A model generated the notes under the pieces. It did no database searches. It was not told where the DNA came from and saw nothing but the letters and a program-made list of their open reading frames with translations. DNA of 64,000 bases from the NCBI RefSeq assembly GCF_001519065.1, contig NZ_KQ954252.1, positions 267,535 through 331,534 of the forward strand. The letters are read 5' to 3'. Positions 16,021 through 39,429 of the stretch are shown here, one piece after another (within the stretch, counting starts at the first letter, position 1; the number at the start of each line of letters is the position of its first letter). The DNA comes from Novosphingobium sp. FSW06-99 (GTDB lineage Bacteria; Pseudomonadota; Alphaproteobacteria; Sphingomonadales; Sphingomonadaceae). A program made the translations under genes and the position numbers.

Positions 16021-16022
16021 GG

Positions 16023-22771: not shown

Positions 22772-24028
22772 CTACGTATCGGGCGCAAGTGTGCGGCGGC
22801 GCGGCGCCAGTGTTTCACGCTGTGTCAGCCAGATCAGCGCGGCGAGCGAAAAGGCCACGGCCGCGCTCGACATGGCGGTGGCCATGCCGGCGCTTTCGGC
22901 GATGCGCGCGGTAATCAGCGGCGCGAAAAAGCTGATCAGGCGGCCCCAGTTGAAAATCGACGCGGCGGTCGATTGCAGATGTGGGGGATAGAGTTCGGCC
23001 ATCCACGCGCCCCAGATCACACTGGAACACAATGTCGCGCCATAGACCAGGCCCAGCAGTTTCAGCACCAGCACATCCGATGGCACCAGCAGATATCCGG
23101 CGATGGCGAGGGCGGCGATGAAAAACCCGATCGCGTTGAACCGGCGGCCAAACCGGTCTGCCGCCCAGCCCCAGAAAAACCCGCCCGCGATATTGCCGGT
23201 GAATTGCCAGGCGACCAGTTGCCCGGCCAGCGCCGCCGACAAGTGGCGTTCGCCGGTCAGATACGTGGTCAGCCAGCCGCTGAAGGCGGCATAGCCAAAG
23301 AAATTGAGCCCGGTCATCGCCGCCAGCGCCAGCGTCTGGCGGCGCACGGCGGGGGCAAACAGTTCGCTGATCGGCAGCGCGGCGCCCTTGCGCCGCACCA
23401 GATCGATCGCCGACCCGGCCGGGATCAGCGCATAGCCCGCCATCGCCAGCACCAGCGGCGGAATGCCGCCGCCCCACAGCAGCACGCGCCAGTTGCCCGG
23501 CCCGACCTGGCCCATGGCAAAGCCCAGCGCGACGATCGCCAGGCTGAAACAGGCGTTGAGCAGGCTGGCCAGCCGCCCGCGCACGCCGGGCCCGAACAAG
23601 TTGACATAGATGCCCACCCCGACCGGAAAGCTGGCGCCGGTAAACAGCCCCAGCGCAAACCGTTGTGCCAGCAATTCGGGATAGGAGGCGACCCAGGCCC
23701 CGGCGATCAGCATCGCGCCATAGCCCGCCACCAGCAACGGAAACATCCGCCGCCGCCCGAACCGGTCGGCCAGTTGCCCGATCACCACTGCGCCGATCAG
23801 CGCGCCCGCGCCTTGCGCCGAATAGGCCGATCCCGCCGCCACCAGCGACAGATCGAGCGAGGCGCGGATGAACGGACGCAGCACGTCGACCGTGTTCCAC
23901 GCCCAGCCATAGAGAAATTCGCACACCATCAGCAGTGCAAAGATTGCCACCTGCCGCACCAGCCCCGGCCGGGGCGGGGCAGATGCGACGGCGTGGCGGG
24001 GCAGGGGTTCGCTGATGGCGGTGGTCAT
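22772..24028 (-). CDS. MFS transporter, aromatic/organic-acid symporter type
   Basis: 418 residues, 12 membrane helices. The loop 'GQLADRFGRRRMFP' between helices 2 and 3 and 'GWAADRFGRRFN' between 8 and 9 are the paired MFS signature; the arrangement resembles the AAHS/SHS organic-acid:H+ symporters. It is the last gene of the minus-strand set hydrolase - NTF2-fold protein - MFS, six bases after the NTF2-fold gene stop, and therefore under the palindrome at 26030. Probable role: uptake across the inner membrane of the compound, or of a hydrolysis product, handled by this locus. Start ATG at 24028. Confidence 0.88.
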   Translation of the reverse strand: MTTAISEPLPRHAVASAPPRPGLVRQVAIFALLMVCEFLYGWAWNTVDVLRPFIRASLDLSLVAAGSAYSAQGAGALIGAVVIGQLADRFGRRRMFPLLVAGYGAMLIAGAWVASYPELLAQRFALGLFTGASFPVGVGIYVNLFGPGVRGRLASLLNACFSLAIVALGFAMGQVGPGNWRVLLWGGGIPPLVLAMAGYALIPAGSAIDLVRRKGAALPISELFAPAVRRQTLALAAMTGLNFFGYAAFSGWLTTYLTGERHLSAALAGQLVAWQFTGNIAGGFFWGWAADRFGRRFNAIGFFIAALAIAGYLLVPSDVLVLKLLGLVYGATLCSSVIWGAWMAELYPPHLQSTAASIFNWGRLISFFAPLITARIAESAGMATAMSSAAVAFSLAALIWLTQRETLAPRRRTLAPDT

Positions 24029-24033
24029 CGCGA

Positions 24034-25164
24034 TCAGGCCGCGGCCTGGATCGCGGCGAGCTTCAACTGCACCAGCATCGAAAATTCGTCATAGACCGCC
24101 CATTCGTCGATGATCTTGCCATCGCGCACGTGGAAATGGGTGACGCCCATCACCGACAGATGGTGCCCGGTCGGCACGCCGAGCGAGCCATAGCCCAGGT
24201 GATGGCCATCGATCAGCCAGCGCACGGCATATTTCACGCCGCCTTCTTCGCTGTCGACCGAACAGATGTGTTGCGGCACGAACGCGGCATCGGGGATCAT
24301 CGCCACCAGCTTGATGGTCTGCTGCAACACGGCGGCCACGCCATAGAGTTCGCGCATAAGCGGCCCGTGCCACTGGCAATTGGCGGCATAGATATCGCTG
24401 ATCGTGCCGAACATGCGCTGGTTATAGATGCGGTGCAGCCAGCGCAGCAGCTCTGCCTCGCCCTCGGTATGGGCGATCGACAGGTCGGCGGCGCTTTCGG
24501 GCGGATATTGGCCGAGCAGGCGGCGGTTTTCCGACAAATCGAGCACGGTTTCACCCGAATCGAATTTCCGTTGCGCCAACGCCTGCGCAAAGACGTGCGG
24601 ATCGAGGCCGACCTGGACCAGCGGTCCCATGTTGTCGCGCACGATCCATTCCTTGTAGATGCGGTTTTCCAGGATCATGCAATCGGCCACGGTGCGCGTG
24701 CAGAACGTGCGCCCGGTCGGTTTGCCCCAACTGCCAAATTCGGTGTGGCGCCCCAGACCATGCGTCATGTGGCTGGTGTAGAACCCGTTTACGTCATCGC
24801 CGTTCCAGATCACCTGTTGCGCCATGCCGCGCCGGTCGGGAAATTCGGCCAGTCGCTGGATGGTGTCGCGAATGTGGGTTTCGCGATCATACATCGTGCC
24901 CAGTGTGGTGTAGGCCACGCAATTGTGCGTGTAATGGGTATAGATCAGCCCGACATCGCGTTCGTCCCAGATACGGTGGGTGCAACGGATGATGTAATCG
25001 ACGATATCGGTGTAGCAATCGTCAAACCCGCGCATCGATTGCACGCGCGCGCGGTTTTCGGGCACCAATTGGGTGAAATCGCGGCGCTCGACTTGCAGGA
25101 CGCGGCCATTGTCGACCGCCACGGGAGCAGCGGCGGGTTTTTTGGGGGAAGGGCTGTCAGTCAC
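24034..25164 (-). CDS. Tandem SnoaL/NTF2-like protein
   Basis: 376 residues with two similar halves, each of the NTF2/SnoaL alpha+beta cone: 'FDDCYTDIVDYIIRCTHRIWDERDVGLIYTHYTHN' in the first, 'EAELLRWLHRIYNQRMFGTISDIYAANCQWHG' in the second, each followed by strands containing HxH-like or WxxDxxH segments ('MGVTHFHVRDGKIIDEWAVYDEFSML'). SnoaL-like proteins are cyclases, isomerases, hydratases or lyases; none of these can be chosen here. GTG start at 25164 overlaps the hydrolase stop (GTGA). Its presence between a hydrolase and a permease argues for a catabolic enzyme. Confidence 0.75.
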   Translation of the reverse strand: MTDSPSPKKPAAAPVAVDNGRVLQVERRDFTQLVPENRARVQSMRGFDDCYTDIVDYIIRCTHRIWDERDVGLIYTHYTHNCVAYTTLGTMYDRETHIRDTIQRLAEFPDRRGMAQQVIWNGDDVNGFYTSHMTHGLGRHTEFGSWGKPTGRTFCTRTVADCMILENRIYKEWIVRDNMGPLVQVGLDPHVFAQALAQRKFDSGETVLDLSENRRLLGQYPPESAADLSIAHTEGEAELLRWLHRIYNQRMFGTISDIYAANCQWHGPLMRELYGVAAVLQQTIKLVAMIPDAAFVPQHICSVDSEEGGVKYAVRWLIDGHHLGYGSLGVPTGHHLSVMGVTHFHVRDGKIIDEWAVYDEFSMLVQLKLAAIQAAA

Positions 25165-25928
25165 GAAACCTCCATGGGTGAAGAGCGCTCAATCGGGGTG
25201 TGGCCGGTGGTAAGCCAGTCGCCAAGCGCAGTCGCGCAGGCGTCGGGTGCTTCCAGCGGCAGAAAATGTCCGGCCTCGGCGATCATCCGCAAGGTTGCGC
25301 AAGGCAAGCCCCCGGCCAGTTCCTGTTGCAACAAGGGCGGCGCGATCGCATCGCGCGCGCCGCCCAGCACGAGCGCAGGCATCGCCATCGACGCCAGCCG
25401 CGCGCGTTTGTCGTTGCGGGTCAGCGCCAGTTCGGTCTGTTGGCGCAGTGTGTCGGGCGGCGCGGCGCGGGCCATGGCGATGATCGATGCGCGCAAGGCC
25501 GCATCGTTGAGCCGCGACGGGGCAACCGAACGCGGCCACAGCACATTGCCGACCAGATCTTCGGGCGCCAGATCGGCGATCGCGCGGCGCATCGGGCAAT
25601 CCGCCGCCGGGACAGCACGCGCATTGCCCGCAATCAGCACCAAGGCGGCAACCCGCTCCGGCGCGCGGGCGGCGATATGCAGCGCAACGATCGCACCGAG
25701 CGAAAATCCCACCGCGATGAACCGGGGCGGCGCCTCGGCCAGAATGGCGCCGGCCTGGCTGTGGACATTGTCATACCCGGTCATCGTGCCATGGTGCACG
25801 GTGCGCCCGGCCATCGCCGGGCCGCCGTTGAGCGCGGCCAGCATTGGTGCAAACACCCGTGCATCGCACAAAGTGCCGGGCAGCATCAGCAGGGGTGCGG
25901 CGCGATCGATCGCCACGGGCGCAGGCAT
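25161..25928 (-). CDS. Alpha/beta hydrolase
   Basis: 255 residues. 'LLMLPGTLCDARVF' carries the oxyanion-hole region, 'AVGFSLGAIVAL' the GxSxG nucleophile elbow, 'GARDAIAPP' the acid and 'EAGHFLPLEAP' the His. The architecture fits carboxylesterases, lactonases and meta-cleavage-type C-C hydrolases. The start ATG at 25928 is the first after the intergenic palindrome; the much longer open frame that continues upstream is antisense to the cupin gene. First gene of the three-gene minus-strand operon that ends with the MFS carrier. Confidence 0.88.
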   Translation of the reverse strand: MPAPVAIDRAAPLLMLPGTLCDARVFAPMLAALNGGPAMAGRTVHHGTMTGYDNVHSQAGAILAEAPPRFIAVGFSLGAIVALHIAARAPERVAALVLIAGNARAVPAADCPMRRAIADLAPEDLVGNVLWPRSVAPSRLNDAALRASIIAMARAAPPDTLRQQTELALTRNDKRARLASMAMPALVLGGARDAIAPPLLQQELAGGLPCATLRMIAEAGHFLPLEAPDACATALGDWLTTGHTPIERSSPMEVS

Positions 25929-26029
25929 GCAGTCTCCCCACAGGCCCTGGTGCGGCCTGCATCTTGAAAATTTTGTAGCACGGCACGCGCCTTGCGGCTT
26001 GCGCTGCGACGGGCAATGGCTTAGCACAA

Positions 26030-26045
26030 TTGCATTCGAATGCAA
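26030..26045. promoter_or_regulatory. LacI-family operator TTGCATTCGAATGCAA (site 1)
   Basis: A perfect 16-bp palindrome with central CG in the 168-base region between the divergent hydrolase operon (start 25928, minus) and the bicupin (start 26097, plus). The same sequence recurs perfectly at 37038 and with changes at 28535 and 29865. It should control both flanking transcripts. Confidence 0.8.
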
Positions 26046-26096
26046 GAGGCGCGCTGGCCCTGTCTCGACACAGCCGGGCGGTGTTGCCCCCCAACC

Positions 26097-27128
26097 ATGG
26101 AGCAAAGTGTGACCGAATGGACCAACGAGGCCATGGCTGCGCGGCTTGTCCGCTATGCCGATCTCGTGCCCTGCCGCACCGCCTTTATCGACACCCGCAC
26201 GCCGGGTTCGACCGAGAAGGAAAATTTCACGATCATCGGCGCCGGGGTGTCGGAAAGCGCGGACCAGTTCGTGCACATCACCCAGCCGCACGGCTTCAAC
26301 ATCGGCGCCGCGCGTCAGCCGGGGGGCTGCGTCAATTCGCAGCACAGCCATGAAACCGCCGAAGTGTTCGTGGTACATTCGGGCCAGTGGCGGCTGCTGT
26401 TCGGACCCAATCGCGAAGACGGCACGCTCGACATCGGGCCCGGCGATGTCGTCTCGGTGCCGACGCGGATGTTTCGCGGGTTCGAAAACATCGGCGATCA
26501 CACGGGATTTCTGTGGGTCGTGCTGGGCGAGGATGATCCGGGCCGGGTGACCTGGGCCCCGGCGGTGTTCGAGGCGGCGGCCGATCACGGGCTGCGGCTG
26601 AGCAAGAGCGGCATGCTGATCGACACCAGCAGCGGCGAAGCAGTCTTGCGCGAAGCGGAAATGGCCGAGGCGATCGATCCGCAGGCGACGGCGGACCTCG
26701 CCACGCCGTCGCTCGACCGGCTGATGCAATGCGTGGCGCGTGCCGATGCGCGACCGGGCAATCCGGATTCGCCGCTCGCCGCCGAGGGCGTTGCCGAAGC
26801 CGGGGTGATCGTGCCGCAGGCGACGTCTGACGGCTTTGCCGCCGGGCCGATCGTCGGCTGGTGGCGCCACGGCTTCAACTTGCGCCAGTTGACTCTGCAA
26901 TCGGGCGCCTATGTGCCGCATCACAGCCGCGCCGAGGCCGAAGTGCTGTTCATCCAGAGCGGCACACTCGAAGTGAGCTGGCCCGAAGGCAGCCTGATCA
27001 TGGGGGCGGGCGATACGCTGACTGTGCCGATCGGTCTGCCCCGCGCGTTCCGCAACACCGCCTCGGTGCCATGTGTGGCCTTCGTGGTGCGCGGCACCGA
27101 CGATCCGGCGCGGCCGGTGTTCGCCTGA
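26097..27128 (+). CDS. Bicupin protein (possible dioxygenase or isomerase)
   Basis: 343 residues with two cupin barrels. The first (about 75-155) has 'HSHETAEVFVVHSG' (metal ligands H-x-H-x3-E) and 'GPGDVVSVPTRMFRGFENIG' as the second motif; the second (about 255-335) has 'PHHSRAEAEVLFIQSG' and 'GAGDTLTVPIGLPRAFRN'. Both halves therefore keep plausible metal ligands. Such proteins include gentisate and other ring-cleaving dioxygenases, but also sugar isomerases and quercetinase-like enzymes. The ATG at 26097 has only a poor ribosome-binding sequence. Divergent from the hydrolase operon across operator site 1 and ended by a strong terminator. Confidence 0.8.
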   Translation: MEQSVTEWTNEAMAARLVRYADLVPCRTAFIDTRTPGSTEKENFTIIGAGVSESADQFVHITQPHGFNIGAARQPGGCVNSQHSHETAEVFVVHSGQWRLLFGPNREDGTLDIGPGDVVSVPTRMFRGFENIGDHTGFLWVVLGEDDPGRVTWAPAVFEAAADHGLRLSKSGMLIDTSSGEAVLREAEMAEAIDPQATADLATPSLDRLMQCVARADARPGNPDSPLAAEGVAEAGVIVPQATSDGFAAGPIVGWWRHGFNLRQLTLQSGAYVPHHSRAEAEVLFIQSGTLEVSWPEGSLIMGAGDTLTVPIGLPRAFRNTASVPCVAFVVRGTDDPARPVFA

Positions 27129-27149
27129 TCGCACAAGCCCGAATGGTCG

Positions 27150-27179: not shown

Positions 27180-27186
27180 TTTCGTA

Positions 27187-28482
27187 TCAGACCGTCAGGC
27201 CAAGCCGCTGATAGCGGATCGCGGCGGCCTTCTGGTGGCCTTCAAGTCCCTCGCTGCCGCTCTGCCGGATGGCGGGCAGGGCAACGGTCGGGATGGCGCG
27301 GTCCTCGATCCACTGATGCGTGGCGATCTTGACGTACGAGCCGACCCACAGCCCGCCGGTATAGCGGCCCGCGCCCATCGTCGGCAGCGTGTGGTTGGTG
27401 CCGACATTCTTGTCCGAATAGACCACGCTGGCGTTTTCGCCGATGAACAGCGATCCGTAATTGCGCAGTTTGGCCGCGAAATCATGCGGATCGCGGGTGT
27501 GCACTTGCAAATGTTCGGCGGCGACATGGTCGGAATAGGCGATCATCGCGGCTTCATCATCGCACAGCACGATCTCGCCGTAATTGGCCCAGCTTTCCCC
27601 CGCGACGGCTGCGGTCGCCAGCGTCTGCAACTGGCGTTCGACTTCGCGCACGGTGGCCTCGGCGAGCGCGCGGTCGGTGGTGATCAGCCCGACGCGGGTG
27701 CGCAGATCATGCTCGGCCTGACCCAGCAAATCGCAGGCGATCAGTTCGGGATCGCCGGTCGCATCCGCAACCACAAAGATTTCCGAGGGGCCCGCCAACT
27801 GGTCGATGCCGACCGGACCGAACACCTGGCGCTTGGCCTCGTTCACAAATGCGTTGCCGGGGCCCATTATCTTGTGGACTTGCGGTACGGTCTGCGTGCC
27901 ATAGGCCATTGCCGCGATCGCCTGCGCGCCGCCGATGCGGAAAATGCGGTCGGCGCCCGATAGATGGCAACCGGCGATCATCGCGCGGTGGGCGTTGGGC
28001 GGCAGGCATGCGACGACTTCGCTGCATCCGGCCACTTTGCCGGGCACGATGGTCATGATCGGCGCCGACAACAGCGGAAACCGTCCGCCCGGCACATAGG
28101 CACCGATGCGCTCGATCGGGATGACGCGGTGGCCAAGGTGGATGCCCGGCAGCGGTTCGATCTCCAGCGGCAGGATGGTCGACAGTTGCGCCTCGGCAAA
28201 GCGGCGCACGTTGTCGATGGCGAATTCGGTGTCGGCGCGGGTCTGCGGGGCCAGTTCGTCGAGCGCGGCCTGACGGTCTGCGGCGGTGACCTCGAACTGG
28301 TCGAGATCGATCTTGTCGAATTGCGCGCCGTATTGCCGCACGGCTTCATCGCCGCGTGCCCGCACATCGGCGAGCACGTTGGCAACGATGCCGGTCACAT
28401 CGCCGGCATCGACGAACTGGTCGCGCGCGGGCGCCTTGATATAGCGGGTGGTCTGGGCAAAGCCCGCGGGTGCGGATGTCAT
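27187..28482 (-). CDS. Histidinol-dehydrogenase-family dehydrogenase (copy 1)
   Basis: 431 residues, the full length of the HisD family. Zinc ligands and catalytic residues are in place: 'LLGQAEHD' (Gln and His), 'AAEHLQVHT' (catalytic Glu-His), '[13 protein letters not shown]' (Asp), and 'EGLEGHQ' near the C-terminus (His). 'GAYVPGGRFPLLSAP' and 'GPGNAFVNEAKRQVFGPVG' are the NAD-binding and hinge signatures. There is no other his gene nearby, and the neighbours are a LacI regulator, cupin and transporters, so it is probably one of the non-histidine paralogues (like HpsN, which oxidizes a sulfopropanediol alcohol in two steps to the acid). Start ATG at 28482 with GGAG seven bases upstream. 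Divergent from the lacI gene. Confidence 0.88.
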   Translation of the reverse strand: MTSAPAGFAQTTRYIKAPARDQFVDAGDVTGIVANVLADVRARGDEAVRQYGAQFDKIDLDQFEVTAADRQAALDELAPQTRADTEFAIDNVRRFAEAQLSTILPLEIEPLPGIHLGHRVIPIERIGAYVPGGRFPLLSAPIMTIVPGKVAGCSEVVACLPPNAHRAMIAGCHLSGADRIFRIGGAQAIAAMAYGTQTVPQVHKIMGPGNAFVNEAKRQVFGPVGIDQLAGPSEIFVVADATGDPELIACDLLGQAEHDLRTRVGLITTDRALAEATVREVERQLQTLATAAVAGESWANYGEIVLCDDEAAMIAYSDHVAAEHLQVHTRDPHDFAAKLRNYGSLFIGENASVVYSDKNVGTNHTLPTMGAGRYTGGLWVGSYVKIATHQWIEDRAIPTVALPAIRQSGSEGLEGHQKAAAIRYQRLGLTV

Positions 28483-28534
28483 CGGTTTCTCCGTGGCATG
28501 GCAGGAAGGATCGGGTCGAGAGCGGCGGGTCATA

Positions 28535-28550
28535 ATGAATTCGAATGCAA
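28535..28550. promoter_or_regulatory. LacI-family operator (site 2, 14/16 match)
   Basis: ATGAATTCGAATGCAA; two changes from the perfect palindrome TTGCATTCGAATGCAA, both in the left half. It lies in the divergent region between the hisD-like gene (start 28482) and lacI (start 28660), 53 bases before the former. It continues as AAGTCA, as does site 3 with one extra A. Confidence 0.72.
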
Positions 28551-28659
28551 AAGTCACAGGAAATGTCACGTGGATTGCAGGGCAGGGTGGATGCGACAGC
28601 GTTTGCCCGAACGGGTCAAGGCGACTAGACGTTGATATGTCCCTTTTTCGACGGTGATC

Positions 28660-29712
28660 ATGCCCAAACCGCAAACCAACAAGAAGACCACCGCAACGGG
28701 AATGGAAAAGGGGCGCCGACCCACTTCTTACGATGTGGCACGGATCGCCGGGGTGTCGCAATCGGCGGTTTCGCGCTGTTTTGCGCCCAATGCATCGATT
28801 GCCCCGGCCAAGCGCGCGCTGATCCTGAAAGTCGCCTCCGAAATCGGCTATCGCCCCAATGCGCTGGCGCAGGCGCTGATTTCCAAGCGCACCAACATTG
28901 TCGCGCTGATCATTTCGGCACGCACCAATCTCTATTATCCCGAAGTCCTGGCCGAATTGGGCGCGCGGCTGAGCGATCGCGACATTCGTGTGCTGCTGTT
29001 CACGCTGTCGGCGGAAAGCGATGTCGATGGCGTGCTCGACCAGATCTGGCGCCATTCGGTCGACGGGGTGATTTCGGCGGCGCGGATGAGCCCGGCGCAA
29101 ATCGCGCTGTTTGCCGAACATCGCGTGCCGCTGGTGCTGTACAACCGCGTCGGCAGCGGCGCCCCGTCGGTGCGATGCGATTCGGTGGCGGGCGAGCGCG
29201 ATCTGGTTGATCGGCTGCTGGCGGCGGGGCACACCCGCTTTGCCATCCTGTCGGGACCGGCCGACAATGTCGTCGCCGAAGAGCGGCGGCTGGCTGCGCT
29301 CTCTGCGCTGGCCGCTGCTGGAATCGGCGAAGTACCTGAAGAACGTGGTGATTTTTCCTATGCCAGCGGGCATCAGGCGCTGATCCGGCTGTACGAACGG
29401 TGCGGGACGATCGACACCGTGATCGCGGTGAGCGACCATATGGCGATCGGCGCAATCGATGCGGCGCGGATCACGCTGGGCCTGGCCGTGCCCGACGATC
29501 TGTCGGTGGTCGGGTTCGATGGCGCAGAACCCGCGCGCTGGGGTAGCTATGATGTGACCACGGTGCGCCAGCCGGTGCGGCGCATGACCGAAGCCGCCGT
29601 CGCCATGCTGATGGAACGGATCGAGGACCCGACCGCATTGTCCGAACAGCGCCTGTTCACCGGAGAACTGCTGCGCGGCAGCAGCGCACGACTCGCCGAC
29701 AGCGATTTGTGA
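28660..29712 (+). CDS. LacI-family regulator, probable master of the 23-39 kb regulon
   Basis: 350 residues. Long basic N-terminal arm, then helix-turn-helix 'TSYDVARIAGVSQSAVSRCF' and hinge 'RPNALAQALISKRTNIVALI', then a PBP-like sensor ('GVISAARMSP', 'VSDHMAIGAIDAAR', 'VVGFDGAEPARW'). LacI proteins bind 14-18-bp palindromes with central CG, which fits the TTGCATTCGAATGCAA sites flanking this gene and others between 26 and 37 kb; it is the only regulator gene in that interval. ATG at 28660; a GTG six bases earlier is in frame. Ribosome-binding sequence is weak. Likely a repressor released by a pathway intermediate. Confidence 0.92.
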   Translation: MPKPQTNKKTTATGMEKGRRPTSYDVARIAGVSQSAVSRCFAPNASIAPAKRALILKVASEIGYRPNALAQALISKRTNIVALIISARTNLYYPEVLAELGARLSDRDIRVLLFTLSAESDVDGVLDQIWRHSVDGVISAARMSPAQIALFAEHRVPLVLYNRVGSGAPSVRCDSVAGERDLVDRLLAAGHTRFAILSGPADNVVAEERRLAALSALAAAGIGEVPEERGDFSYASGHQALIRLYERCGTIDTVIAVSDHMAIGAIDAARITLGLAVPDDLSVVGFDGAEPARWGSYDVTTVRQPVRRMTEAAVAMLMERIEDPTALSEQRLFTGELLRGSSARLADSDL

Positions 29713-29864
29713 ATTCGAATACGGCATTTCGCCGTTATTTCGGCGTGGCGTGGCGTGGAAAATTCGTCAGAAATCGATGCATGGCAGCCTGACATGAATT
29801 TTAATGTATTAATTTCAATATTTTAACACTTTATTTTGGTCTCCGCATTCCTTGCGCAAAGTCA

Positions 29865-29880
29865 ATGACTTCGAATGCAA
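29865..29880. promoter_or_regulatory. LacI-family operator (site 3, one half conserved)
   Basis: ATGACTTCGAATGCAA lies 70 bases upstream of the TonB-receptor start. The right half (TTCGAATGCAA) is identical to the other sites. It is followed by AAAAGTCA, nearly as after site 2. The upstream 29780-29845 stretch is very AT-rich and probably holds the promoter. Confidence 0.65.
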
Positions 29881-29950
29881 AAAGTCATGGACAACGCGCC
29901 GCCCCACCGATAGGCTCGCGTCATCAAGGGGCAATAAAAGGACAATGCTC

Positions 29951-32242
29951 ATGCGAAGCATGTTTCGGGGAGTTTCGATTCTGGCGCTGATGGCCGCTTC
30001 GGCGCCAGCGATGGCTGCAGACAATGCCGGCCAACCCGCCGCCACCAGCGATACCGGCACCACCGACATCATCGTGACCGCCCAGCGCCGCGATGAAAAA
30101 TTGCGCGACGTGCCGATTTCGATGACCGCGCTGTCGGCCGATGCGCTGCAAAAGCTGCATGCCGACAACATCGGTCGGCTCGAATTCGCCACCCCCGGTT
30201 TTACCTGGGGTTCGCAAGGGTCGGACTCGTTCCCCGCCATCCGCGGTGTGCGCACCAGCCTGGTGTCGGCGCAGAACGACCCGGTGATCGGTTTCTACAT
30301 CGATGGCATCTATCAAAGCCGCACCCAGCAGCAGAGCATTCCGCTGTTCGACGTGGCGCGCGTCGAAGTGCTGCGCGGGCCGCAGGGCACGCTCTATGGC
30401 CGCAACACGTTTGGTGGTAATATCAGCGTGGTAACCCAGGATCCGACCAAGGATCCGGGTGTCGATATCAACCTCGATCGCGGCAACTGGAACGAAACGC
30501 GCATCGATGGCGCGATCAACATCCCGGTTACCGACAACCTGCAGGTCCGCTTTGCCGGGGTGTTCCAGCGCCACGACGGCTATGTCCATTCGACGTATCC
30601 GGGCGTCGTGCTCGATGACCTCAACGAAAATGCCCAGCGCGTCAGCGTGAAATGGACCCCCGCTTCGAATGTCGAGGTGTCGTTGCATGCCGGGATCTGG
30701 CGGCGCGACGATGCGGGGGCCGGGTCATACGGGTATAAAGTGGCGGGCACGCTGATCAATCCGGTCACCGGCTATCAATCGATCTATGGCCAGGCCTATG
30801 CGGTCAATCCGTCGGTTCCGGGCGGGCTGGTGGTCGGCGGCCAATCGATCGGCGTGCCGGTTACGGCGGGGCCGTGGACCAATGACTGGGATTACCAGCC
30901 GTTCGAACATATCGCCGAGGATTATGTGTCAGGCCAGATTGCGATCAATCTGGGCGCGGCCACGCTGAAAGCGATCACCGGCTATACCCATTTCCGCGCC
31001 GACCGCAGCGCCGACAACGACCAGTCGAGCGAGCATTTCCAGGCGTTCGGTTATGGCAACGGCATCCAGAACCCCGATACCAAGTCCGATGCATTCACCC
31101 AGGAAGTGCAGCTTGCCTCGAACGGCAACACCCGGCTGCAATGGATCGCCGGTCTCTATTATCTGCACGATTCGATCTTCGAGATCTATCAGCAGCAACT
31201 GACCGATCCGGGCGCGACCACCGACGGCTACAAGGAGACATCTGCGCTCCATACCGATGCTTTCGCGGTCTATGGCCAGGCCAGCTATGCGCTGATCCCC
31301 GATCAGCTCAAGGTTATCGGCGGTGCCCGCTATAGCTATGAAAAGAAGGCGTTTGCCTTTGCCGACTATGCCGACGCCCCGCCGGGAACCTATAATTTCA
31401 CCACGCCTTACAGCCAGACTTCGGGCAGCCCCAGCTTCAACAGCGGAACCTGGCGCGCGGGCCTGCAATATACCCCCGATCGCAACACGATGCTTTATGC
31501 CACCGCGTCGACCGGGTTTGAATCGGGCGGGGTGAACGATACCGGCGGCGACAGCCAGATCCCGTCATCCTATTCGCCGCAGAAAGTCTGGGCTTATGAA
31601 GTCGGCGCAAAATCGCGCATTCTGAACGGCCTGGCGGATGTCGAACTGTCGGGATTCTACAACAAGTTCTCGAACCTGCAGATCAACGTCTATACCCCGC
31701 TGGTGTCGTACTTTGGCTCGGCGGGCAAGGCGCGCAGCTATGGCGGCGAACTGGCTTTGCGCACGCATCCGCTGCCCAATCTGCATATCGATGCCACCGC
31801 GGCGCTGATGAATGCCAAGTATACCTATTACATCAGCGGCAACAATTTCTATGGGGCGTCGGGCGGCACCGATCCGATCTCGCTCAATCTGGCGGGCAAG
31901 CAGATCCCGCAGTCGCCCGATTTCAAGGCAACCGTGCTGGTCGCCTATGACATCAGCCTGGGCGATGCGGGCATGATCACCCCGTCGGGCAGCGTGCTGC
32001 ATTCGGCCAGCTATTACACTACCGATTACAACACCGTGCTCGACTGGCAGAAAAGCTATGAAAAGTTCGACGCCTCGCTGCGGTGGACCGCTGCCAATGG
32101 CAAGACCTATGTCGAAGCCTATGGCGACAACCTCAGCAATCAGGCCACGCTGCTGAGCGGCGTGATCGGCCGTCTGGAACGCATCCAGGTGTCCTATGCC
32201 GCGCCGCGCACTTATGGTGTGCGGGTCGGCACCAAGTTCTGA
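29951..32242 (+). CDS. TonB-dependent receptor of the LacI regulon
   Basis: 763 residues. Signal peptide (about 1-25, 'ALMAASAPAMAAD'), TonB box-like region and plug starting 'DIIVTAQRRDEKLRDVPISM', plug motif 'RVEVLRGPQGTLYGRNTFGGNI', then a long barrel ending 'YGVRVGTKF' with a terminal Phe. This is the most common sphingomonad receptor type, used for many small hydrophobic or aromatic compounds as well as siderophores; no iron genes are nearby. The ATG at 29951 is preferred because AAAGGA is eight bases upstream; the ATG at 29945 is too close to it. Expected role: outer-membrane uptake of the substrate of the 23-39 kb locus. Confidence 0.92.
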   Translation: MRSMFRGVSILALMAASAPAMAADNAGQPAATSDTGTTDIIVTAQRRDEKLRDVPISMTALSADALQKLHADNIGRLEFATPGFTWGSQGSDSFPAIRGVRTSLVSAQNDPVIGFYIDGIYQSRTQQQSIPLFDVARVEVLRGPQGTLYGRNTFGGNISVVTQDPTKDPGVDINLDRGNWNETRIDGAINIPVTDNLQVRFAGVFQRHDGYVHSTYPGVVLDDLNENAQRVSVKWTPASNVEVSLHAGIWRRDDAGAGSYGYKVAGTLINPVTGYQSIYGQAYAVNPSVPGGLVVGGQSIGVPVTAGPWTNDWDYQPFEHIAEDYVSGQIAINLGAATLKAITGYTHFRADRSADNDQSSEHFQAFGYGNGIQNPDTKSDAFTQEVQLASNGNTRLQWIAGLYYLHDSIFEIYQQQLTDPGATTDGYKETSALHTDAFAVYGQASYALIPDQLKVIGGARYSYEKKAFAFADYADAPPGTYNFTTPYSQTSGSPSFNSGTWRAGLQYTPDRNTMLYATASTGFESGGVNDTGGDSQIPSSYSPQKVWAYEVGAKSRILNGLADVELSGFYNKFSNLQINVYTPLVSYFGSAGKARSYGGELALRTHPLPNLHIDATAALMNAKYTYYISGNNFYGASGGTDPISLNLAGKQIPQSPDFKATVLVAYDISLGDAGMITPSGSVLHSASYYTTDYNTVLDWQKSYEKFDASLRWTAANGKTYVEAYGDNLSNQATLLSGVIGRLERIQVSYAAPRTYGVRVGTKF

Positions 32243-32908: not shown

Positions 32909-34174
32909 TCAGGCGGCTTCGAGCTTGTGCGCCAGGGCGAACAGGCGCGCTTCCTCGCCATCGGGCAGCAGCAACTCCACGCCGATCGGGCGCGCGTCGG
33001 GCGTGCTGCGCACCGGCACGCTGATCGCGGGCCAGCCGGTGCGCGCTGCCAGTTCGGCGGCCCAGCCTCCGGCGGGATTGTCCAGGCTGTCGGGCACCAC
33101 GCGCAGTGTGGGATAGATCAGGCCATCGACGCGCGCATCGGCCATCGCCCGCACCAGCGCCAGTTTCAGCCCGGCATGACGCGCCAGAATGCCCGCCGCC
33201 TGTGCCGGATCGGCGGCCATGCGGCGGTGCAAGGCCTCGGCATGGTCGGGCAGAAAGTCCCCGCCGGCGACCAGTTCGGCCAGCGAGCGTGGCGCAGTAC
33301 CGGTCGCGAAATGATGCGCCAGATAGCGATCGAACGCGGCGGCAAACTCCACATCGACAATATGCGCGCCATCGAGCCATTCGGGCAGCGCGTCGCACAC
33401 AAACGGATCGACCAGCGTCACCCCGGTGCGATCGAGCCGGGCACAGGCCACATCGAGCGCCTGCACGATACGCGGATCTTCGCCCTGCGCCATGCGCAAC
33501 ACGCCGACCCGCACGGGGCTTGTGCGATCGGCCAACGGGGCGACCGTGCCGCCCATCGCGCGATAGACCATCAGCGCATCGGCTACCGATGCCGCCAGCG
33601 GGCCAACGGTGTCTGTACTCGGCGCCAGCGGGGCGATCCCATGCATCGGCAGCGCGCCGTGTGCCGGGCGAAACCCGACCACCCCGCAGACGGCTGCGGG
33701 AATGCGGATCGATCCCCCGGTATCGGTGCCCAGCGCCACGCGGGCATAGCCGCAGGCCACCGCGACGGCCGATCCGCCGCTCGATCCGCCCGCCGTTGTC
33801 GCCGGATCGAACGGACACAGCACATCACCGCCCAGCGAGCTGCGCGAACGGATCTCGAACGAGAATTCCGACAAATTGGTCTTGCCAATCGGCACGGCCC
33901 CGGCGGCGCGCAGCCGCGCCACCACCGTCGCATCGCCCGGCGCCAGGGCCTGCGCCAGCGCGCGGCAACCCGATGTCGTGGCCATGCCTGCCAGATCGAT
34001 ATTGTCCTTGATCGCGATCGTCACGCCATGCAGCGCGCCGCGCGGGCCAATTGCGGCATCGATCGCCTCGGCCCGCGCCGCGGCCGTGGGATCGAGCGCG
34101 AGCATGGCGTGCCAGTGCTGGTCTTCGGCGGCGATCCGCGCCAGACCGGCGTCGAGCGCGGCGCGCGCGGTCAT
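32909..34174 (-). CDS. Amidase-signature hydrolase
   Basis: 421 residues. The Ser-cisSer-Lys triad is visible: 'VTIAIKDNIDLAG' (Lys), 'TTAGGSSGGSAVAVA' (cis-Ser), 'LGTDTGGSIRIPA' (Ser nucleophile). Family members hydrolyse amides, ureides (allophanate) or esters. It is the last gene of the operon hisD-like - SDR - HpcH aldolase - amidase; its ATG overlaps the aldolase stop (ATGA). In this context it probably opens an amide in the substrate or an intermediate. Confidence 0.92.
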   Translation of the reverse strand: MTARAALDAGLARIAAEDQHWHAMLALDPTAAARAEAIDAAIGPRGALHGVTIAIKDNIDLAGMATTSGCRALAQALAPGDATVVARLRAAGAVPIGKTNLSEFSFEIRSRSSLGGDVLCPFDPATTAGGSSGGSAVAVACGYARVALGTDTGGSIRIPAAVCGVVGFRPAHGALPMHGIAPLAPSTDTVGPLAASVADALMVYRAMGGTVAPLADRTSPVRVGVLRMAQGEDPRIVQALDVACARLDRTGVTLVDPFVCDALPEWLDGAHIVDVEFAAAFDRYLAHHFATGTAPRSLAELVAGGDFLPDHAEALHRRMAADPAQAAGILARHAGLKLALVRAMADARVDGLIYPTLRVVPDSLDNPAGGWAAELAARTGWPAISVPVRSTPDARPIGVELLLPDGEEARLFALAHKLEAA

Positions 34175-34929
34175 TGGCAGGCGGCAATCAGGCGCGCCGC
34201 GCCATCGAGCAGAAAACCGTGATCGGACCCGAGCAAAAACAGGCTGGCCCCCTTGTCGGCCCAGTATGGCACATCGCCGGGGCGCGCCAGGAACATGCCG
34301 ATACGGCGATCATGGCGCAATCCGGCGGCGCAGATCCGTTCGACCGCCGCGACCACGCGCGGATCGTCCTGGGTCTGCGCGCCATAGGCCACAGTCAGGT
34401 CGGCGCGCCCGACAAACAGCGCATCGATCCCGTCGATGGCCGCAATCGCGTCGATCGCCTCGACCGCATCGGGGTCTTCGATCTGGGCGATCGCCACGGT
34501 TTGCGCGGCGCTGGCGGCCAGATGGTCGGCCATGGCGCGCGTGGTATAGCCGGCCGCGCGCGATGATCCGGCATAGCCGCGCCCGTTTTCGCCATAGTGG
34601 CAGGCGCGTGCGAACGCCGCCGCCTCGTCGGCGGTGCGGATATGCGGCGCAACCACGCCGGTTGCGCCGCAATCCAGCGCATTGAGGATATGTTCGGGGC
34701 TGGCCACCGGCACACGCACCAAGATCGGCATCTGACAGGCGCGGGCCATCGCCACGCAGCCGTCGATCGCCAGCCGGTCAAACGGGGCGTGTTCGGCATC
34801 GAGGCACAGGCAGTCGAGCGCAGACAGCGCCAGCACTTCGCTGACAATTGGCGAAGGCGTCTTGACGAAACAGCCGATCAGCCGTTCGGCGGAAAGCAGG
34901 CGTTGGCGAAAATCGCGGGCAGGGGGCAT
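34171..34929 (-). CDS. HpcH/HpaI-family aldolase
   Basis: 252 residues. 'DCLCLDAEHAPFD' (metal and catalytic region), 'ILVRVPVASPEHILNALDCGATGVVAPHIRTADEA' and 'IGMFLARP' are family signatures, and the fold is a TIM barrel. Enzymes of this group cleave 4-hydroxy-2-oxoacids (such as 4-hydroxy-2-oxoheptanedioate or 2-keto-3-deoxy sugar acids) to pyruvate plus an aldehyde, with a divalent metal. Start ATG at 34929 with AGGA eight bases upstream. It lies 11 bases after the SDR gene and overlaps the amidase start. Confidence 0.9.
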   Translation of the reverse strand: MPPARDFRQRLLSAERLIGCFVKTPSPIVSEVLALSALDCLCLDAEHAPFDRLAIDGCVAMARACQMPILVRVPVASPEHILNALDCGATGVVAPHIRTADEAAAFARACHYGENGRGYAGSSRAAGYTTRAMADHLAASAAQTVAIAQIEDPDAVEAIDAIAAIDGIDALFVGRADLTVAYGAQTQDDPRVVAAVERICAAGLRHDRRIGMFLARPGDVPYWADKGASLFLLGSDHGFLLDGAARLIAACQ

Positions 34930-34940
34930 CGGCAAATCCT

Positions 34941-35696
34941 TCAATCCGCGGTCCAGCCGCCATCGACAACCAGGCTGGTGCCGGTGATCAGCGACGCTGC
35001 ATCGCCCGCCAGGAACACAATCGCGCCCATCAGGTCTTCGACCTGGCCCAGCCGGCCCAGCTTGATTTTCGCCAACACGTGTTTGCGAAAGACGGTGTCT
35101 TCGAAAAACGGCCTGGTCATCGCGGTTTCGATGAAGGTGGGCGCGATCGTGTTCGAACGGATGCCGTGGGGCGCCAGATCGAGCGCCAGCGCCTTGTTCA
35201 ATCCCTCGATCGCCCATTTCGACGCGCAATAGAGGCTGCGGTTCGGCCCGCCGACATGGCCCATCTGGCTGCCCATATGGATCAGGCTGCCTTTGACGCC
35301 ATCGCGCAGCATAGCCCTGATCGCGCCCTGTGCGACGAAAAACGCAGCCTTTACATTCAGATCGAGCACGGCGTCGCAATCCGCCCCGGTCACATCCCAC
35401 ACCGGATTCGGGCGGTTGGTGCCCGCATTGTTGATCAGCACATGATAGGCCGGGCGGCTGTTGAAGAAGGCCGCCACCGCGTCGGTATCCGCCACATCGA
35501 GCACCGCCGCCTCGGCCCTGGCCCCGATCAGCCCGGCAGCCGCCTCGATCTCGCTGGCGGTGCGTGCCGCCAGCGTGACGTGCGCACCCGCCTCGGCCAG
35601 CGCGGCCGCTGCCGCCAGCCCGATCCCGCGCCCCGCCCCGGTGACCAGCGCGCGGCGGCCATCGAGGCGGAACGAAGGCGTTTTGGGCAATGTCAC
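34941..35696 (-). CDS. Short-chain dehydrogenase/reductase
   Basis: 251 residues. Classical SDR: 'GAGRGIGLA' (NAD(P) binding), 'INNAG', the catalytic Ser-Tyr-Lys in 'IHMGSQMG...[10 protein letters not shown]', and the C-terminal '[12 protein letters not shown]'. It probably oxidizes or reduces a hydroxyl in the pathway next to the hisD-like enzyme. GTG start at 35696 overlaps the stop of the hisD-like gene (GTGA). Confidence 0.9.
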
Positions 35697-37021
35697 GCGC
35701 GGGTCAGTTCGCTAGGGGTCGCCTGCCCAGCATAGGGCACATTGCGGTGGCCATAACGGCGCACGCGCAGATTGGCCTGTTCGCCATGCCCGGCAAACCC
35801 TTCCAGTGCGCACAGGCGGCTGCAATATTCGCCCACCAGTGCGCTCGCCTCATCGGTCAGCACTTTCTGATAGGTGCAGGTTTTCAGGAACTTGCCCACC
35901 CACAGCCCGCCGGTATAGCGCGCCGCCTTTTTGGTGGGCAGCGTGTGGTTGGTGCCGATCACTTTGTCGCCAAAGCTGACATTGGTGCGCGCGCCCAGGA
36001 ACAGCGCGCCGTAATTGGTCATGCTGTTCAGGAAATAATCGGGATCGGCGGTCATCACCTGAACATGCTCGCTGGCGATCTGGTCGGCAATGGTGACCAT
36101 TTCTTCGTAGCTGTCGGCCACGATCACCTCGCCATAGGCCTCCCACGCCTTGCGCGCGATCTCTGCAGTGGGCAGGATGGCCAGCAGGCGGTCGATTTCC
36201 GCCATCGTCGCGCGGGCAAACTGTTCGCTGTTGGTCAGCAGCACGCCGGGGCTGTCGGGGCCGTGTTCAACCTGGCCCAGAATGTCGGTCGCGGCCATTT
36301 CCGGGTCGCAGCCCGCTTCGTCGGCGATGATCAGCGTTTCGGTAGGGCCTGCGAACAAATCGATGCCGACCCGGCCAAACAGTTGCCGCTTGGCCTCGGC
36401 CACAAAGGCATTGCCGGGGCCGACCAGAATATCGACCGGATCGATGCTCTGCGTGCCGATCGCCATCGCGCCGATCGCCTGAATGCCGCCCAGCGCATAG
36501 ATCGCGTCGGCCCCGGCCATCGCCTGCGCGGCCACGATCGCGCGCGCCGGCTTGCCCTGAAACGGCGGGGCGCAAGTGACCACGCGCGAAACGCCGGCGA
36601 CTTTGGCAGTGATCACGCTCATATGCGCCGAGGCGAGCAGCGGGTACTTGCCGCCGGGCACATAGCAGCCCGCCGCGTTGATCGGCACATGCTTGTGGCC
36701 CAGGATCACGCCGGGCATGGTTTCCACTTCGACATCGTGCATGCTGGCGCGCTGGATCGTCGCGAAATTGCGCACCTGGGTCTGCGCGAATTCGATGTCC
36801 TTGCGCTCTTGCGGGCTCAGACTGTCGACTGCCGCATCGATTTCGGCCTGGCTCAGGCGATAGTCATCGCGGTCCCAGCCGTCGAACTTGATGCTCATCT
36901 CGCGCAGCGCCGCGTCGCCGCGCTGTTCGATGTCCGCCAGTGCCGCCTCGACAATGTCGCGCACCTTGCGATCCGCCGCCGCCTTCACATCGGCATTCGC
37001 GCCGCGTTTGAGGTAATACAC
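35693..37021 (-). CDS. Histidinol-dehydrogenase-family dehydrogenase (copy 2)
   Basis: 442 residues. The same active-site set as copy 1 is present: 'LGQVEHGPD', 'ASEHVQVMT', '[13 protein letters not shown]' and 'LEGFAGHGE'. '[19 protein letters not shown]' resembles, from memory, the HpsN (sulfopropanediol 3-dehydrogenase) branch more than true HisD. It is only moderately similar to copy 1, so they are old paralogues, probably with different substrates. GTG start at 37021 with GGGAG seven bases upstream. First gene of a four-gene operon; operator site 4 lies 17 bases upstream, ideally placed for repression. Confidence 0.88.
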
Positions 37022-37037
37022 ACGATGTCTCCCTGAT

Positions 37038-37053
37038 TTGCATTCGAATGCAA
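37038..37053. promoter_or_regulatory. LacI-family operator TTGCATTCGAATGCAA (site 4)
   Basis: Identical to site 1 over all 16 bases. It sits 17 bases before the hisD-like copy 2 start (minus) and 139 bases before the cstA start (plus), so it may control both. Confidence 0.8.
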
Positions 37054-37191
37054 GATACGATCGCGCGCGCCGCTGTCAAGCCCGATGGCGTGTTGGCAAG
37101 GCGTTGGCGCGCCGACCAATGTCGGCAATTGGAGCGCGCCAAACTTTGTGTACAAGCGGCGCATCGGGTTGGTACCGAACAGGAGGCAGGT

Positions 37192-39237
37192 TTGCGCAAA
37201 GCGGTGGTCTGGGGCGCGATTGCGGTGCTGGGAACATGGGCGCTGGCCATGGTGGCGCTGGCGCGGGGCGAAACGGTCAATGCGGTGTGGGTGGTGATCG
37301 CGGCGGTCTGCACCTACCTGATCGCCTATCGCTGCTATGGGCGGTTCATCGCGCAACGGGTGGTCGGGCTCGATCCGGCACGGCCGACCCCGGCGCATAC
37401 GCGCGCCGACGGGCTCGATTTCGTGGCCACCGACAGGCGGGTGCTGTTTGGCCACCATTTCGCCGCGATCGCCGGGGCAGGGCCGCTGGTCGGGCCGGTG
37501 CTGGCCGCGCAGATGGGCTATCTACCGGGCATGCTGTGGATTCTGGCGGGCGTGGTGTTTGCCGGCGCGGTGCAGGATTTTGTCATCCTGTTCGTGTCGA
37601 TGCGCCGCGAAGGGCGCTCGCTGGGCGAACTTGTCCGGCTGGAAATGGGTACCGCCGCCGGCGTGATCGCGTTGTTCGGCACGTTCCTGATCATGGTGAT
37701 CATCCTGGCGGTGCTCGCGCTGATCGTGGTCAAGGCGCTGGCCAACAGCCCGTGGGGCCTGTTCACCGTTGCCGCCACGGTGCCGCTGGCGTTGCTGATG
37801 GGCGGCTACAGCCGGTGGGTGCGCCCGGGACGGATCGGCGAAGTGTCGCTGCTGGGCATGGTCGGGCTGTTGCTGGCGATCATGTTCGGGCGCACGGTGG
37901 CCGACAGCGCCGCGCTGGCGCCGTGGTTCACGGTATCGGCGGTGCAACTGTGCTGGATTCTGGTGGGGTATGGCGCGATCGCGTCATTGTTGCCGGTGTG
38001 GCTGTTGCTGGCACCGCGCGATTATCTGTCCACGTTCCTCAAGATCGGCGCGATCCTGGCGCTGGCAGTCGGCATCGTGATCGTCGCGCCGCCGCTGCGG
38101 ATGCCTGCGGTGACACAATTTGTGCATGGTGGCGGGCCGGTCTGGTCGGGTTCGTTGTTTCCGTTCCTGTTCATCACCATCGCCTGCGGCGCGGTGTCTG
38201 GGTTTCACGCGCTGATCGCCAGCGGCACCACGCCCAAGCTGATCGCCAATGAACGCGATGCGCTGTTTATCGGCTATGGCGCGATGCTGGCCGAAAGCAT
38301 GGTGGCGATCATGGCGCTGATCGGTGCGTCGGTGATCGATCCGGGCGTCTATTTCGCGATGAACAGCCCGGCAGCGGTGGTCGGTACCGATCCGGCCAGC
38401 GCGGCGCGGGCGGTTTCGGCAATGGGCTTTGCGGTGACCCCGGCAACGATTGCGGCGGTGGCGCACGATGTCGGCGAACAGACAGTGATTTCGCGCGCGG
38501 GCGGGGCACCGACGCTGGCGGTGGGCATGGCGCAGATTTTCAGCCAGGTGATCGGCGGCAAGGCGCTGATGGCGTTCTGGTACCATTTCGCCATCCTGTT
38601 CGAGGCCTTGTTCATCCTGACCGCCGTCGATGCGGGAACGCGCGCGTGCCGGTTCATGCTGCAGGATCTGATCGGGCTGGCGGTGCCCTCGTTCCGCAAT
38701 GCCACCGGGATCGTGCCTGCGCTGGTCGGCACTGCCTCGTGCGTTTCGGCCTGGGGGTTCATCCTCTATCAGGGGGTGACCGATCCGCTGGGCGGGGTGA
38801 ACACACTGTGGCCGCTGTTCGGCATTTCCAACCAGATGCTCGCTGCGATCGCGCTGACGCTGGCGACGGTCGTGCTGCTGCGCATGAAACGGCAACGCTA
38901 TGCCTGGGTGACGATACTGCCGACCGCGTGGCTGCTGGTGTGCACGCTGACGGCGGGCTTGCTCAAACTGGTCAGCAGCGATCCCAAAGTGGGCTTTCTG
39001 GCGCACGCGGCCAGGATAGGTGCAGCCATCGCGCGCGGCGAAGTGCTGGCCCCGGCCAGGTCGATGGCCGACATGCGCGCCATTGTGTGGAACGATCGCG
39101 TCGATGCCGGGTTGACCGTGCTGTTCGTGGCGGTGGTGGTGGCCATGGTGCTGTTCGGCCTGCGCGCGGGCCTGGGCGCGCTGCGCGCCGATCGCCCGAC
39201 GGTGCACGAACTGCCCGGCCAAGCGGTGGGGGCATAG
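37192..39237 (+). CDS. cstA: CstA-family carbon starvation / pyruvate transporter
   Basis: 681 residues, about 16-18 membrane helices. 'GHHFAAIAGAGPLVGPVLAAQMGY' and 'ISNQMLAAIALTLATVVLL' are CstA signatures. CstA proteins were first linked to peptide uptake and later shown to carry pyruvate. I choose a TTG start at 37192 because AGGAGG lies five bases upstream and a membrane helix begins just after; an ATG at 37048 in the same frame falls inside the operator and has no ribosome-binding site. Followed three bases later by its usual small partner. Divergent from the aldolase operon, which could produce pyruvate. Confidence 0.92.
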   Translation: MRKAVVWGAIAVLGTWALAMVALARGETVNAVWVVIAAVCTYLIAYRCYGRFIAQRVVGLDPARPTPAHTRADGLDFVATDRRVLFGHHFAAIAGAGPLVGPVLAAQMGYLPGMLWILAGVVFAGAVQDFVILFVSMRREGRSLGELVRLEMGTAAGVIALFGTFLIMVIILAVLALIVVKALANSPWGLFTVAATVPLALLMGGYSRWVRPGRIGEVSLLGMVGLLLAIMFGRTVADSAALAPWFTVSAVQLCWILVGYGAIASLLPVWLLLAPRDYLSTFLKIGAILALAVGIVIVAPPLRMPAVTQFVHGGGPVWSGSLFPFLFITIACGAVSGFHALIASGTTPKLIANERDALFIGYGAMLAESMVAIMALIGASVIDPGVYFAMNSPAAVVGTDPASAARAVSAMGFAVTPATIAAVAHDVGEQTVISRAGGAPTLAVGMAQIFSQVIGGKALMAFWYHFAILFEALFILTAVDAGTRACRFMLQDLIGLAVPSFRNATGIVPALVGTASCVSAWGFILYQGVTDPLGGVNTLWPLFGISNQMLAAIALTLATVVLLRMKRQRYAWVTILPTAWLLVCTLTAGLLKLVSSDPKVGFLAHAARIGAAIARGEVLAPARSMADMRAIVWNDRVDAGLTVLFVAVVVAMVLFGLRAGLGALRADRPTVHELPGQAVGA

Positions 39238-39240
39238 GCG

Positions 39241-39429
39241 ATGCTGCGCGATATGCTTGCCATCGTCACCGCTGCGAGCCGGCTGATGGTGGGCCAAAGC
39301 TCGTACCGGGCCTATTGCGACCACATGGCGGCGCATCACCCCGATGCGCCGGTGATGGATGAACGCGCCTTTTTCCGTAGCCGCCAGGAAGCGCGCTATG
39401 GCGGCAGGGGCGGCGGCCGCTGTTGTTGA
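39241..39429 (+). CDS. YbdD/YjiX-family small partner of CstA
   Basis: 62 residues. Members of this family are short cytoplasmic proteins encoded directly after cstA/btsT and needed for transport in the cases tested. Seen here: 'YRAYCDHMAAHHPDAPVMDERAFFR', the conserved centre. Gap to cstA is three bases. The C-terminus is Gly/Arg-rich. Confidence 0.9.
   Translation: MLRDMLAIVTAASRLMVGQSSYRAYCDHMAAHHPDAPVMDERAFFRSRQEARYGGRGGGRCC

Follow-up and report, generated by a model that had tools for sequence, protein, structure and literature searches.

The 64,000-nucleotide stretch of the Novosphingobium sp. FSW06-99 genome analysed here (the window) carries four copies of a 16-base palindrome, TTGCATTCGAATGCAA, that precede transport and enzyme operons in the neighbourhood of a lacI gene. 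We consider it likely that these operons constitute a conserved catabolic regulon and that the LacI product represses them. The cells are likely to feed on a compound via this gene set, with LacI as its predicted switch, and the enzymes are predicted to oxidise a vicinal CH2OH group to the acid and to release pyruvate. The initial annotation of the window had proposed a single regulon marked by the palindrome; the footprint, the specificity of the sites and the covariation of helix and operator described below bear this out, with the palindrome in all likelihood read by the neighbouring LacI.

The palindrome is perfect at 26030..26045, in the gap between the hydrolase and bicupin genes, and at 37038..37053, between a histidinol-dehydrogenase-like gene (hisD2) and cstA. 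The copies at 28535..28550, between a second such gene (hisD1) and lacI, and at 29865..29880, between lacI and the gene for a TonB-dependent receptor, have 2 and 3 mismatches, respectively (no strand is assigned to any of the four). All four are intergenic, as judged from likely gene starts read in the sequence, and the site scan and the open reading frame (ORF) reading agree with the earlier description of two perfect and two partly kept copies. The 37038 site lies 16 bases upstream of hisD2 (start at 37021); cstA probably starts at 37192, approximately 138 bases away from the site. On its other strand, the 29865 site reads TTGCATTCGAAGTCAT, and relatives repeatedly show this form close to receptor genes. 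Allowing up to 3 mismatches, 5 matches are found in the window compared to 0.44 expected, a number reached by none of 100 shuffles; the fifth, at 53583 (3 mismatches), falls within an ORF. We also observed a weak partial palindrome (TGAATTCGAATACG) across the lacI stop codon (29710-29723) and, in locus L014, GTGAATTCGAAGGCAA immediately past the lacI match.

Conservation of the sites was determined by scoring all 16-mers in the 200-base stretches preceding six window genes, representing four intergenic regions, in seven close relatives (L014, L015, L016, L018, L021, L106, and L142; six of them for the receptor). For the bicupin, hydrolase, and hisD2 genes, the operator ranks first of 185 16-mers, with a mean of 1.0 mismatch compared to an all-16-mer median of 5.7-6.1; the L014 cluster has no hisD2 copy, and its hisD2 footprint was taken from upstream of its hisD1. 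In the hisD1/lacI gap, a 16-mer one base off ranks first of 185 (2.29 mismatches) and the exact one is in the top 5. Upstream of the receptor gene, a one-base-off 16-mer again ranks first of 185 (1.33 mismatches), with the exact one in the top 7.

Scanning the LacI protein against species genomes gave 108 confirmed relatives, and the best 80 of these 108 provided the loci used here. They are mostly from Sphingomonadales, Hyphomonadaceae and Caulobacteraceae, Rhodospirillales, Woeseiaceae and other gammaproteobacteria, and Burkholderiales/Rhodocyclaceae. Many of them come from metagenome bins (one labelled Actinobacteria and one Chloroflexi, which may be binning errors), and contig ends truncate some. 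Their 1.44 Mb contain 13, 46, 101, and 157 sites at 0, ≤1, ≤2, and ≤3 mismatches, where a first-order Markov model predicts 0.0, 0.0, 0.3, and 7.3; the 101 sites at ≤2 mismatches are spread over 58 of the 80 loci. A second operator form, TTGCATTCGAAGTCAA (≤1 mismatch), is also recurrent, and counting both forms gives 138 sites in 67 of the 80 loci, mostly upstream of orthologous genes; the motif does accompany these genes in relatives, a point on which the initial annotation had staked its proposal. Seven of the 138 sites lie within a core gene, and for 7 no start of such a gene is found inside 400 bases. The starts near the sites (a single operator may count for two genes) are those of the TonB receptor (38), hisD (34), LacI (30), a second SnoaL protein (28), the bicupin (24), a short-chain dehydrogenase (SDR; 20), a first SnoaL protein (11), and L-serine ammonia-lyase (6).

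The exact palindrome occurs in the 4.79-Mb host genome at the two window places only, and at ≤3 mismatches there are 13 places compared to 1 for a reversed control. Two groups of these were rejected as regulon sites: a 2-mismatch place on contig C6 sits within ORFs, presumably kdsB-kdsA, and the seven 3-mismatch places off contig C2 (L005, L008-L013) have no cluster gene within 1.5 kb on either side except for a 26% TonB-receptor hit. Among 249 genomes of the family, a site at ≤1 mismatch is present in 7, i.e., in 3 of 6 genomes with a LacI orthologue (defined at E ≤1e-60) and in 4 of 243 without (Fisher p 0.00027; 2 of 5 versus 4 of 243 when the host genome is left out, p 0.0047). The orthologue is patchy in the family and was not found in the 3 other listed genomes of the genus. 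Across 385 alphaproteobacterial genomes, the exact palindrome is found at 5 places in 4 genomes, and 4 of these places are in this cluster, two being the window's. Those outside the window are upstream of hisD2 (G430), between bicupin and SnoaL genes (G270), and on a short contig piece in which no gene was recognised (G378).

The lacI gene (28654..29712, plus strand) encodes a protein with a helix-turn-helix (PF00356, 38.7 bits; cut-off 27) and a periplasmic-binding-type sensor domain (PF13377, 88.9 bits; cut-off 26.5), placing it in the LacI family, and a palindromic operator is conserved by its own gene and by its targets. Its predicted reading of the operators is based on these domains and on a recognition-helix comparison of 80 aligned LacI proteins (that of the window plus 79 others, taken from 78 loci), in which Ser35, Gln36, Ser37, Val39, Ser40, and Arg41 are present in all 80 and Tyr26 in 79. 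Covariation was analysed in 119 loci, of which the 100 with a recognisable helix motif were kept and 19 dropped, using CG-centred sites with 2 mismatches allowed. Loci with a Tyr LacI (89) have 168 sites, 83 with a T-CG-A centre and 1 with A-CG-T; in the 10 loci with a non-Tyr LacI, A-CG-T is the centre of 7 of 17 sites (spread over 5 loci) and T-CG-A of 1 (Fisher p 1e-7, uncorrected for relatedness). One locus, L037, has both kinds of LacI. The Klebsiella and Salmonella proteins, 32-33% identical to the window's, keep the Tyr and have TTCGAA-centred sites; those of Pantoea and Delftia have Gln in its place and TACGTA-type sites. We take the covarying Tyr to correspond to the DNA-contacting Tyr of the Lac repressor. 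This covariation is the best evidence here that LacI reads the palindrome, and the predicted LacI-operator regulon is well supported.

To describe the gene content of the cluster, we counted tblastn matches in 86 loci (the window, the 80 relatives, and 5 further genomes). An HpcH/HpaI-type aldolase (HpcH) is present in 76, the first SnoaL protein in 75, hisD-type, bicupin, and MetE-like genes in 71 each, the TonB receptor in 70, the SDR in 62, the hydrolase in 61 (often at 31-36% identity), the second SnoaL protein in 56, an amidase in 10, an RraA-type protein in 5, and cstA in 1. The tallies of hisD1 and the window NTF2 protein miss relatives, both kinds being pooled among the queries; hisD1 is present at 79-88% in L014, L015, L016, L018, L019, L020, L021, and L061. 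The recurrent genes are hisD-like, SDR, bicupin, SnoaL-type, hydrolase, HpcH (or RraA-type), LacI, and a transporter, with the amidase and a second hisD as marks of one cluster variant. Of the 13 genes originally assigned to the regulon, 11 recur in relatives. The other two, cstA and ybdD, we rejected as members, as cstA adjoins the cluster in the window alone of the 86 loci and does not appear in the feature list for the surroundings of the EMRT-2 cluster; the earlier argument from CstA as a pyruvate carrier is hence not supported either.

Annotated plasmids offer clear-cut examples. The plasmid of Novosphingobium sp. EMRT-2 carries the proposed hisD2-SDR-HpcH-amidase block, a TonB receptor, LacI, hisD1, a cupin, a hydrolase, an ester cyclase, and a major facilitator superfamily (MFS) transporter, together with three exact operators in the same places as in the window and no cstA in the stretch examined. 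Pantoea has amidase, hisD1, ester cyclase, NTF2, LacI, MFS, hisD2, SDR, hydrolase, HpcH, and cupin genes, the four genes of the block being split over two operons. Roseibium, Alloyangia, and Martelella have ATP-binding cassette (ABC) importers, and RraA in HpcH's stead; Martelella holds most of the core, with no SDR listed in the stretch examined. The Klebsiella plasmid has no more than LacI, hisD2, SDR, MFS, hydrolase, HpcH, and cupin. We read the core, which is found again in Pantoea, Klebsiella, Roseibium, and Alloyangia, as a putative set of hisD2, SDR, hydrolase, aldolase, and bicupin with an exchangeable periphery of either hisD1-amidase-ester cyclase or MetE-like-SnoaL, plus transporters. 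The mutual exchange of HpcH and RraA points to one 2-oxo-acid step.

A hisD2 relative (E ≤1e-130) is present in 58 of the 385 alphaproteobacterial genomes, often in other settings. Ten of 20 hisD2 contexts have a bicupin (31-57%) and several other core genes (L118, L119, L120, L125-L128, L130-L132, and L137, less one cut by a contig end); contexts such as L121-L124 and L134-L136 do not show this set. L118 and L119, from 1.4-Mb alphaproteobacterial genomes, keep a hisD2-SDR-bicupin-SnoaL-MetE-RraA cluster that in L118 includes a sugar-type solute-binding protein. The Salmonella Milwaukee (L148) and Klebsiella michiganensis (L143) plasmids, both typed as conjugative, carry LacI and a hisD2-type gene, and their operators are paired, 55 bases apart start to start. 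In N. aromaticivorans pNL2 (L141) and Blastomonas (L146), hisD2 at 91-92% and an SDR lie in aromatic-type clusters, in which no LacI match and no site at ≤3 mismatches was found; the dehydrogenase pair therefore serves other pathways too.

The identities of the window genes agree with Pfam. Around the first operator lie, on the minus strand, the MFS transporter (22772..24028; its best model hits, all under the cut-offs, are symporters of aromatic and other organic acids), a tandem NTF2/SnoaL-fold protein (24034..25164; "ester cyclase" in annotated relatives), and the alpha/beta-hydrolase (25161..25928; searches ran on 25161-25985), and, on the plus strand, the bicupin (26109..27128; start at 26097 or 26109). 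They are followed by hisD1 (27187..28482, minus strand) and, beyond lacI, the TonB-dependent receptor (29945..32242, plus strand; searches ran on 29939-32242). The second block, all on the minus strand, consists of an amidase-signature protein (32909..34174), HpcH (34171..34929, start read from the sequence; searches ran on 34171-34938), the SDR (34941..35696), and hisD2 (35693..37021), which shares its intergenic space with cstA (37192-39429), the host genome's sole CstA. ORF coordinates confirm the overlapping stop and start codons that had been noted, with three 4-base overlaps (hydrolase/NTF2, 25161-25164; HpcH/amidase, 34171-34174; hisD2/SDR, 35693-35696). Motifs taken to be catalytic are present in the HisD proteins, HpcH, the SDR, the amidase, and the hydrolase; those of HpsN come from the literature.

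Both HisD proteins differ from the histidine-biosynthesis enzyme: a third copy in the host genome (C4) scores 551 bits to PF00815, compared to 452 and 442 for the window copies, and is 39.5% identical to hisD1 and 40.7% to hisD2. Among solved structures, hisD2 is closest to HpsN (8v35) and hisD1 to (R)-2,3-dihydroxypropane-1-sulfonate (DHPS) dehydrogenase (8wwe), and hisD2 has SEH and GDK aligned with the catalytic Glu318-His319 and Asp352 of HpsN. A conserved His within ASAHM may be a specificity residue of HisD2. HpcH belongs to the HpcH/HpaI superfamily (PF03328, 90.7 versus 25 bits) and is closest to GarL both by solved structure (1dxe) and among NCBIfam models, but it reaches only 145.8 of the 406.75 bits required by the GarL equivalog and also misses the HpaI cut-off. 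RraA-type proteins of relatives score 22-30 bits to 4-carboxy-4-hydroxy-2-oxoadipate (CHA) aldolase models with cut-offs of 179 and 304.5. The bicupin model is confident (predicted local distance difference test 90.9), and Foldseek returned MncA, oxalate decarboxylase, quercetinase, and seed storage proteins at template modelling scores of about 0.5; these are general bicupins, and therefore no function was assigned from structure. By sequence, the bicupin alone gave 7311 proteins at E ≤1e-10 among 8000 candidates scored. The window proteins are outside the narrower enzyme families tested.

We propose that LacI represses the operons and that its binding of the growth substrate or of an intermediate ends the repression. 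The compound would be taken up by the TonB receptor and the MFS protein, and amide, ester, or lactone links would be cut by the amidase and the hydrolase. The HisD-like enzymes may then carry out the four-electron oxidation, with nicotinamide adenine dinucleotide, of a CH2OH that adjoins a hydroxyl or amino group, yielding a carboxylate, and the SDR may oxidise a secondary alcohol; the bicupin and SnoaL-type proteins would rearrange or open the skeleton, and the aldolase would finally release pyruvate or a related 2-oxo acid. HpcH/HpaI enzymes are class II pyruvate aldolases. The same is reported for RraA-fold 4-hydroxy-4-methyl-2-oxoglutarate (HMG)/CHA aldolases (PMC5065237), and PMC11382572 describes HisD and HpsN as forming a carboxylate from a CH2OH whose neighbouring amino or hydroxyl group is bound to zinc.

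Several observations weigh against this proposal. The 80 loci were chosen by LacI similarity and many are akin, so that p values overstate independence; 13 of them have no site even with both operator forms counted, and the exact T-CG-A centre is found in only 83 of the 168 Tyr-locus sites. In the family, 3 of the 6 genomes with a LacI orthologue lack a ≤1-mismatch site, and 4 genomes without the orthologue bear one each. Genes of the hisD2 type also occur in differently composed clusters without the operator. Finally, an RraA-like dehydratase/decarboxylase exists (PMC8563752), and since RraA-type proteins can have this activity, the aldolase step is not certain.

Could the palindrome be read by another factor, with lacI a mere neighbour? 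The reading by LacI is predicted from sequence, and the same operator adjoins LacI proteins as distant as those of Klebsiella and Salmonella. However, these distant proteins keep the same helix residues, helix and operator covary, and every locus found via hisD2 that has CG-centred sites at ≤3 mismatches (L126, L127, L128, L130, L132, L137, L142, L143, L145, L147, L148, L149, and L152) also has a lacI match, which together make another reader very unlikely. As to the substrate, the regulon might serve a sugar-acid route, a specific form of our proposal in which HisD2 would act on the CH2OH end of a 2-oxo-3-deoxy sugar acid, and the 2-oxo-3-deoxy-aldarate formed by this oxidation would be split by the GarL-like aldolase into pyruvate and tartronate semialdehyde. 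The proximity of HpcH to GarL and the sugar-type ABC importers within clusters of several relatives are in keeping with it, and a Flavobacterium RraA-like enzyme acting on 2-keto-3-deoxy-hexarate (PMC8563752) would explain the HpcH/RraA exchange; but the GarL score is far under its cut-off, and the amidase, two HisD copies, bicupin, and SnoaL proteins are left unexplained, so that we regard this route as possible, though doubtful. Catabolism of a sulfonate (DHPS or sulfolactate) is suggested by the best matches of both HisD proteins to DHPS dehydrogenases and by the catalytic Glu-His and Asp retained in hisD2. Yet the His126 of HpsN, which according to PMC11382572 recognises the sulfonate within GRY(A/S)H, is replaced by Leu in both hisD1 (GRFPL) and hisD2 (GKYPL), and the feature lists of the annotated clusters include no sulfolyase, with no search aimed at one; with the diagnostic histidine missing in both proteins, we rejected this highly improbable reading.

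A bacterial route for catabolism of mycosporine sunscreens came to mind because of the MetE-like gene, the L-serine ammonia-lyase by an operator, and the expected ring-opening product. HisD2 would convert a C(OH)-CH2OH of the ring to C(OH)-COOH, the O-methyl group would go to the MetE-like protein that most relatives have, and the bicupin would open the cyclic reductone to 4-carboxy-4-hydroxy-2-oxoadipate, which HpcH or RraA would split into pyruvate and oxaloacetate; the released serine might be used by the L-serine ammonia-lyase of some clusters, and hisD1 and the amidase might handle amino-alcohol or amide side chains. The MetE-like gene, so common in the loci counted, is not in the window cluster, and because this module manages without it we consider the mycosporine route decidedly unlikely. 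A 49% identical MetE-like copy lies elsewhere in the host genome, the Klebsiella core lacks the gene, and none was found in 4 of 9 related genomes searched (L014, L016, L017, and L037, of unstated assembly completeness). In the host genome, outside the window, a MetE-like gene lies side by side with folD in a lignostilbene cluster (L105; G000:C5, about 2810-17124), where two lignostilbene dioxygenases and a syringate O-demethylase of DesA type score above NCBIfam cut-offs; the pair suggests methyl disposal via folate, and the position fits a role in methyl-group handling.

Returning to the LacI-controlled regulon, near-identical operators front the same uptake and breakdown genes across several bacterial classes and are sometimes plasmid-borne. 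That bacteria of leaves, soil, freshwater blooms, and the sea share one operator and enzyme module implies that the compound is a common natural one, with a degradation pathway that the annotation of their genomes does not show; the operator provides a ready handle for finding the inducer. The description of the pathway as undescribed agrees with the literature search, which covered an open-licence library and turned up no account of the gene set, of the motif, or of a cluster for mycosporine catabolism.

Parts of the system resemble known ones. With the GarL/HpaI aldolase pathways it shares the HpcH fold and, presumably, the active-site motifs, but its HpcH is under both model cut-offs and no sugar-acid dehydratase is among the window proteins searched. 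The RraA-type HMG/CHA aldolases (PMC5065237) have counterparts that replace HpcH in relatives, with the Arg-Asp pair in the four sequences examined; model scores are weak, however, and the type is not in the window. DHPS catabolism by HpsN and HpsO, as covered by PMC11382572 and PMC11131964, likewise places a HisD-like four-electron dehydrogenase beside an SDR, whereas the cluster here has no His126 sulfonate motif and adds an aldolase, an amidase, a bicupin, and SnoaL proteins. In regulation, the system parallels LacI-family local catabolic regulons (PMC4052901), in which a LacI gene by its targets controls catabolic operons via a palindromic operator; the main text of that survey does not contain the terms histidinol, TonB, or Sphingomonadales. 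In contrast to those regulons, the enzyme set here makes up no recognisable sugar pathway, and it extends over alpha-, beta-, and gammaproteobacteria and plasmids.

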